A stretch of 64,000 nucleotides of DNA from Verrucomicrobiota bacterium. Its GTDB lineage: Bacteria; Verrucomicrobiota; Verrucomicrobiia; Opitutales; UBA953. The notes beneath the pieces were generated by a model that was given only the letters and a program-made list of their open reading frames with translations, was not told the DNA's origin and did not search any database. A program made the translations under genes and the position numbers. Shown here in pieces: positions 31,014 to 32,929 of the stretch (position 1 is its first letter; each line of letters begins with the position of its first letter). The DNA is taken from NCBI GenBank assembly GCA_026397965.1, contig JAPLTU010000035.1, positions 3,892 through 67,891 of the forward strand, given 5' to 3'.

Positions 31014-32897
31014 ATGCGACCGCACAAAGAAATACGCCTGGGGCCGACGCGCCCCTATGATGTCATCGTCTGCGGGGCTGGTCATGCCGGCGTGGAAGCT
31101 GCCCTCGCCGCCGCCCGCATGGGCGTGGACGTTCTGCTCCTGACCGGCAACATCGATACCATCGCCCAAATGAGCTGTAACCCAGCCATCGGCGGCCAAG
31201 CCAAGGGACATGTAGTCCGGGAAATTGATGCCCTCGGCGGCGAGATGGGGCTGACGGCTGACGTGACCGGAATCCAATTCCGGCTCCTTAACTCCTCCAA
31301 GGGTCCCGCCGTCCAGGCTCCTCGAGCCCAGTGCGACAAGAAGGCCTACCAATTCCGCATGAAGCACCTGTGTGAGCTCCAACCCGGGCTCACCCTCTTT
31401 CAAGCTCAGGTCACCGGATTGATCTTTGTCGCGGGACAGGTCGTAGGCGTTCGGACAAATCTAGATCTCGATTTCCATGCCAAAACGGTCGTGGTCACCA
31501 CCGGCACTTTCTTGCGCGGCCTGATGCACATCGGGGCAAATAAAACCGAAGGAGGAAGGTTGGGAGATTTTAGTGCTAAGTCATTGTCCAGCAGTTTTTT
31601 AGATGCAGGAATTGAACTTCAGCGACTCAAGACCGGGACGCCTCCGCGCATCCTCGGATCATCGATTGATTTTTCCAAATGCGAAGAGCAGGCCGGCGAT
31701 AGTTCCCCCACCCTTTTCGCATTTCATGACACCCGGCAGCAGCATGACTTGTTCCACGTGGAACAACGTGGCGAACGGCTCCCCGGGTGGACGCCTGGCT
31801 CCGATCAGGTGTCGTGCTGGATGACTGAAGCCACCGGTGCGACCGGCAAAATTGTCCAAGACAACCTTCACCTCTCCCCTCTTTTTGGTGGAGAAATAAC
31901 CGGGGTCGGCCCGCGCTACTGCCCTTCCATCGAGGATAAGTTTGTTAAGTTTAGTGATAAAGACTCCCACAAGCTCTACCTGGAGCCCGAAGGTCGCAAT
32001 ACCGACGAATGGTATATTAACGGACTTTCAACCTCCCTGCCCTTTGAAGTTCAACTAAAGATGCTCAGCTCCATCGCCGGACTGGAGAAAGCCGTCATGC
32101 TTCGGCCAGCCTATGCGGTTGAATATGACTTCTCGCCCCCCACCCAACTCTATCCGACCTTGGAGTCTAAAAAAGTCGAAGCTCTATTCTTTGCCGGCCA
32201 GATCAACGGCACCTCGGGCTACGAAGAAGCCGCCGCTCAAGGATTAGTGGCCGGGGTTAACGCCGCTTGTAAAGTAAAAGGCCTGACGCCGATGGTAATT
32301 GGGCGCGACGAAGCCTATATTGGCGTCCTCATTGATGATTTAGTCTCCAAAGGCACCCAGGAGCCTTACCGAATGTTCACCAGCCGGGCTGAATACCGAC
32401 TTTTATTTAACCACGGTAGCGCGGAGATTCGCCTAAAGTCCAAAGCGGCGGAGTTTGGCTTAGTTCCAGCCGACCGTTTAACTCGCATCGAAGCTAAAGC
32501 GGCTCGGGTTAGCCATTGGACCGAATATTTAGAGAAAATTACGATACCAGGCGGGATTGCGGGCGATGTGATCCGAAAACAATGGGAAACAACCCCCAAG
32601 GACTTACCCCCAACATTCCTGACGGAAACCCCAGAAGTTCAGGCTGAAGCCATGTATCGGGTTAAGTATAAAGGCTATTTAGAGCGCGAGCTGCGGTCCG
32701 TCCGCAAACTTCATGACCTGGATTCCTTTAAGGTCCCGGCTGGGTTTGATTTTATGAAAGCCCACGCCATCCGCCTTGAAGGCCGGCAAAAGCTTCATGC
32801 CATCCAGCCTCAAACCTTAGGCCAAGCCAGCCGTATAAGCGGGGTAAATCCGTCAGATATCTCTCTGCTGATGGTTCTCTTTAGAGCGAAGAAGTAA
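31014..32897 (+). CDS. mnmG: tRNA uridine-5-carboxymethylaminomethyl modification enzyme MnmG
   Basis: [82 protein letters not shown]. Confidence 0.97.
31750..31765. other. parS: parS-like centromere palindrome (inside mnmG)
   Basis: Exact TGTTCCACGTGGAACA; 18-bp perfect palindrome with flanks (31749-31766). Confidence 0.82.
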
Positions 32898-32913
32898 CAG
32901 GGTAGGGAATTGT

Positions 32914-32929
32914 TGTTCCACGTGGAACA
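32914..32929. other. parS: parS-like centromere palindrome (downstream of mnmG)
   Basis: Exact TGTTCCACGTGGAACA; 20-bp perfect palindrome with flanks (32912-32931). Confidence 0.85.

Follow-up and report, generated by a model that had tools for sequence, protein, structure and literature searches.

In many bacteria, mnmG, rsmG, parA, and parB form a common cluster, with rsmG-parA-parB often occupying the place after mnmG, and adjacency of parA and parB next to the origin is usual, though not defining, for chromosomal ParABS systems. Gene-embedded parS sites are likewise on record: in Bacillus subtilis, parS-359 sits within the parB gene (PMC4442127), and in Pseudomonas aeruginosa, intragenic parS sites have been mutated and a single oriC-proximal parS suffices (PMC4368675). 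The locus described here lies in a window of 64,000 nucleotides (the whole stretch of DNA that was analyzed) from a draft genome of the Verrucomicrobiota, and three described arrangements come closest to it. (i) Like the intragenic-parS ParABS systems of B. subtilis and P. aeruginosa, it has a 16-bp parS within coding sequence and, to judge from closed relatives, probably near the origin; it differs from those systems in having mnmG as host gene, in the position of the site within a lineage-specific protein insertion that recurs phylum-wide and in each of the three frames, in a copy number of often just one or two per chromosome, and in having parA and parB unlinked to the site and to each other. 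(ii) With the mnmG-rsmG-parA-parB cluster, it has in common an mnmG near parS and probably near the origin; here, however, mnmE and mnmG are followed by a PhoBR-like pair in place of rsmG-parA-parB, as the preliminary description of this DNA had reported, and parA and parB are found elsewhere, often terminus-ward. (iii) With Noc and its NBS sites, it shares a ParB-family protein and short palindromic sites, but both the site and the recognition residues are of the ParB/parS type, and the sites number one or two instead of being dispersed. Since ParB, parS, and intragenic parS are already known, what appears, from sequence comparison, to be new is the mnmG-borne, phylum-wide variant of ParABS organization. 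We found no report of such a frame-independent, mnmG-borne parS in the open-licence literature, and a mention in the main parS survey (Livny et al. 2007) is possible.

Table 1. Features of the mnmG locus and partition genes of the draft genome (window positions unless a contig is given)
Feature	Position	Strand	Remarks
mnmE (trmE)	29448-30989	+	Upstream partner of mnmG; profile search; true start possibly downstream of that listed for the ORF
mnmG (gidA)	31014-32897	+	TIGR00136, 736.4 bits (cut-off, 524.85); host gene of parS site 1
MnmG insertion loop bearing parS	31734-31793	+	About residues 241-260
parS site 1	31750-31765	.	Exact TGTTCCACGTGGAACA, inside mnmG
parS site 2	32914-32929	.	Exact TGTTCCACGTGGAACA, 16 bases past the mnmG stop codon
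PhoB-like response regulator	33107-33802	+	TIGR02154, 229.6 bits, below the cut-off of 296.2
PhoR/PnpS-like sensor kinase	33848-35092	+	Profile scores below cut-offs
dnaN	41941-43089	+	TIGR00663, 299.8 bits; distance to the parS pair, about 9-10 kb
parB	C54:46043 (L005:7801-8697)	-	298 aa; sole ParB of the draft
parA	C15:157574		258 aa; Soj-type, KGGVGKTTT; sole such ParA of the draft

The preliminary description had placed two exact 16-mers at mnmG, at positions that we reproduced exactly (Table 1), and had assigned them to the known chromosomal parS class; the match to the parS consensus upholds this assignment, both sites belonging to the TGTTYCACGTGRAACA class of 16-bp parS. The perfect symmetry, as read off the sequence, indeed reaches 18 bp at site 1 (31749-31766, TTGTTCCACGTGGAACAA) and 20 bp at site 2 (32912-32931, GTTGTTCCACGTGGAACAAC). 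Site 1 is translated through the codons TTG TTC CAC GTG GAA CAA as LFHVEQ (mnmG residues 246-251). Scanning of the whole window recovered no other match, even at 3 mismatches, the chance expectation being 0.17 matches at ≤3 mismatches (dinucleotide shuffles of the window). In the whole draft (2,179,274 bases in 89 contigs, 96.5% complete), only these two parS sites, 1.16 kb apart, were found at 0-1 mismatch, together with one 2-mismatch parS-like site on contig C3. A motif scattered across the genome, which the preliminary description had named as the outcome that would speak against a centromere, is thus not what the count at ≤1 mismatch recovered.

We consider it very probable that both palindromes are functional chromosomal parS sites, with site 1 being the ancestral one, and that the centromere has been kept in a loop of mnmG, a tRNA-modification gene with no relation to segregation, across the Verrucomicrobiota, near the origin and with the par genes unlinked. 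ParB made elsewhere on the chromosome would diffuse to the mnmG parS and nucleate there, clamp on with CTP, and slide across the mnmG region, and it would recruit ParA and SMC such that the origin region is segregated. The nucleation site would lie inside a transcribed, conserved gene and would often be the sole one; one or two parS sites are plausible because a single oriC-proximal site is enough in P. aeruginosa (PMC4368675). The amino acids of the loop, usually xFHVEx, would be a by-product of a DNA site carried in a surface-loop insertion of MnmG.

Neither parA nor parB is encoded within the window. They are found on two separate contigs, both other than the parS contig, with parB at least about 80 kb from parS (as measured on contig ends), and a full-length SMC is likewise encoded on a contig other than that of parS. 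parA comes after a trans-2-enoyl-CoA reductase-like gene, and parB is flanked by the gene for a LysM-type protein and a purH-like gene (neighbors named from their translations). The nearest solved chain to ParB is Spo0J (1vz0; E = 1.6e-52), and the protein has the CTP-pocket motifs GERRLR and ENLQR. These data bear on the possibility that the palindromes bind another factor, such as a nucleoid-occlusion protein of the Noc type or a regulator of mnmEG and phoBR transcription. A repressor role for a site within or after mnmG is conceivable, and among NCBIfam profiles, that of Noc (TIGR04285) scores highest with this ParB, but its 236.4 bits fall below the cut-off of 315. At the specificity-setting positions, whose numbering follows Caulobacter ParB (PMC7383237), our alignment gives Q162, G170, K171, R173, N178, S179, Q184, and G201. 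The Noc type is characterized by Q173, K179, K184, and R201, so that a protein with R, S, Q, and G at 173, 179, 184, and 201, i.e., with R173 and G201 and without K179 or K184, is of the ParB type by the published rule (PMC7383237). Moreover, the site conforms to the parS consensus, as opposed to the Noc site TATTTCCCGGGAAATA, and each genome has it once or twice, close to the skew switch in those closed relatives that were sampled. Binding by such another factor is hence quite improbable. As judged from the alignment, the recognition residues are of the parS type and not the Noc type, and R173, N178, and G201 are present in all 20 Verrucomicrobiota ParB proteins checked (19 relatives and that of this genome); a genome devoid of a ParB with a matching DNA-binding helix, the other outcome held up against the centromere in the preliminary description, is therefore not the situation here. 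Residue 204 is Lys in 20/20 of these proteins, where Arg has been listed as conserved (PMC7383237); this Lys204 may accompany the CC..GG form of parS that is dominant in Verrucomicrobiota.

Returning to the parS reading, we evaluated mnmG relatives from named genomes, taking the 80 best, nearly all of which bear an Opitutia or Verrucomicrobiota label; they were collected with peptide search patterns none of which overlaps the parS site. The same MnmG loop has a parS (≤2 mismatches) in all 80 of these loci: 66 are exact, 12 have one mismatch, and 2 have two. In fourteen loci, the gene contains the site two or three times, at spacings of 48-63 bp and with unrelated linkers, and in the 21 closest relatives, a non-coding parS-like copy (0-1 mismatch) is found at the place of site 2, just past mnmG. 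The FHVE tetrapeptide is invariant across all 80 sequences as well as in an alignment of 27 Opitutia MnmG proteins, which would also be expected if FHVEQ were a functional peptide of MnmG (e.g., for contact with tRNA or MnmE) and its likeness to parS merely followed from the protein. However, synonymous positions are frozen at FHVE only, and none of the 80 loci departs from the palindrome by more than 2 mismatches, as synonymous codons in a peptide-driven loop would allow. Its codons are TTC in 80/80, CAC in 75/80, GTG in 76/80, and GAA in 80/80 sequences, with a synonymous entropy of 0-0.34 bit, as against at least 0.92, 0.80, 1.54, and 0.81 bit for the codons of invariant F, H, V, and E residues elsewhere in mnmG, respectively. 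Furthermore, in distant relatives, parS occurs in the same loop in other frames, where it is read as VPRGT or CSTWN, and the second copy past the stop codon, in the window and in the 21 relatives, encodes nothing. The parS loop is also missing from the solved MnmG proteins: the stretch around residues 240-260 aligns as an insertion without counterpart in the structures 2zxh, 3cp8, and 3cp2 (from Aquifex, Chlorobaculum, and E. coli), and an AlphaFold model of moderate quality gives a pLDDT of <50 over residues 242-264. A peptide-level explanation is thus very unlikely. Because the FHVE codons are near-frozen while those of like residues drift, and because parS occupies other frames in distant relatives, selection, as read from these sequence comparisons, acts on the DNA site and not on the peptide. 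By the same evidence, the intragenic site is a conserved, DNA-selected mnmG insertion across the phylum, which goes beyond what the window alone could reveal. It is a clear example from nature of an enzyme whose sequence is in part dictated by a cis-acting DNA element, the loop being FHVEQ, VPRGT, or CSTWN depending on the frame, with parS constant.

The notion that site 2 is the terminator hairpin of mnmG transcription was rejected as hardly credible: it sits just past the stop codon and can fold at -11.2 kcal/mol, but it has no U tract after it, folds no better than shuffles (z = -1.1), and yields no terminator-like site in a scan, whereas the stretch 32977-33013, a hairpin followed by U residues, has a much stronger fold than its shuffles (z = -3.4). 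This second hairpin, which is AT-rich and lies between site 2 and the PhoB-like gene, is probably the real mnmG terminator.

To follow the candidate centromere beyond the closest relatives, we searched 388 genomes of the phylum for an exact parS anchored by following codons for GPRYCP. The search matched 47 genomes, and the 63 genomes of the same order account for 45 of these. A follow-up sample of 33 genomes without such an anchored exact match, including 20 that belong to other orders or classes, showed the site to be more widespread: 28/33 have a parS (≤1 mismatch), which in 23/33 is inside mnmG, usually in the same loop, and is read as xFHVEx in most of them. The frame can vary within a single gene, as in G081, where one 707-aa ORF carries three parS sites in three frames (FHVEQ, VPRGT, and CSTWN), and G283 has three sites that are all in the CSTWN frame. 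The exceptions in the sample are five genomes without a site and five with a site outside mnmG; G125, for instance, has two one-mismatch sites, both elsewhere than in mnmG. In G364, an exact parS is found in a nuclease/helicase-like gene (L230; C14:27491-27506), where it is read as DMFHVEQ; the gene-embedded centromere may have relocated in this genome. G113 has an exact parS near the 3' part of mnmG, read as FHVEH. The same genome (C1; 2,664,102 bases) retains ParB and parS and has no SMC above the NCBIfam cut-off; its ParB-parS may act with another condensin or with none.

We then considered the chromosomal position of the sites. In the window, GC skew has a local minimum near 42-44 kb, with a sign change beside dnaN, and no DnaA-box cluster was found there; on the same contig, the skew drops further past 76 kb, making the contig skew ambiguous with regard to the origin of this genome. 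Of eight closed Opitutales genomes (single contigs, 4.0-6.1 Mb), six have exactly one parS (≤1 mismatch), in mnmG, and the other two (G091 and G140) have one additional parS 1.5-1.7 kb from the mnmG site. In skew sampled from twenty 20-kb stretches per genome, parS lies about 50-160 kb from the skew switch in four closed relatives (G018, G272, G099, and G224), which places their origin near parS; the distance from parS to dnaN is 4 kb in G018 and 43 kb in G272. parB is 0.67-2.93 Mb from parS in the eight genomes, which as a fraction of the chromosome (0.5 being opposite) amounts to 0.17 in G224 and 0.43-0.49 in the other seven. In none of the closed relatives are parA and parB adjacent, the two being 21 kb to >1 Mb apart, and the usual adjacency of the two beside the origin is seen neither there nor in the present genome. 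By sampled skew, parA is near the terminus in G099 and G224. In G173 (two contigs), by exception, parA and parB are both closer. The claim of the preliminary description that the centromere sites are uncoupled from the partition genes thus holds, and the uncoupling is real and no effect of the window because both genes lie outside the parS contig here and parB is 0.67-2.93 Mb away in closed relatives. As a separate observation, both parA and parB are located opposite parS in G018 and G272 (L152, L133, L155, and L131), near the maximum of GC skew on the terminus side.

A broader proposal, which we regard as tentative and rather doubtful, is that Verrucomicrobiota have a separate segregation architecture, in which an obligate, often sole centromere would have resided in the mnmG frame since before the phylum diversified, reshaping the loop in whichever frame it was read, and in which the spreading of ParB over mnmEG may tie the production of this translation enzyme to segregation. 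The arrangement poses the question of why the par genes moved far from parS, contrary to the usual coupling, and an often-single natural parS offers a system for direct tests of ParB loading, spreading, and transcription through a centromere. On a practical level, one gene, mnmG, would predict the centromere and origin region in a large, mostly uncultured phylum, and such prediction would be useful because dnaA heads the records of two closed relatives and yet is off the skew switch. These are G099 (L244, C1:50-1414; 5,957,605 bases) and G224 (L264, C1:31-1374), in which the switch is about 1.0 Mb and 0.3 Mb from dnaA, respectively, with the mnmG parS near the switch. In Opitutales, dnaA hence seems to mark the origin poorly. 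Hi-C work on gut strains, including an Akkermansia, likewise found that the origin is not always at dnaA and is marked by clusters of parS (PMC10197239).
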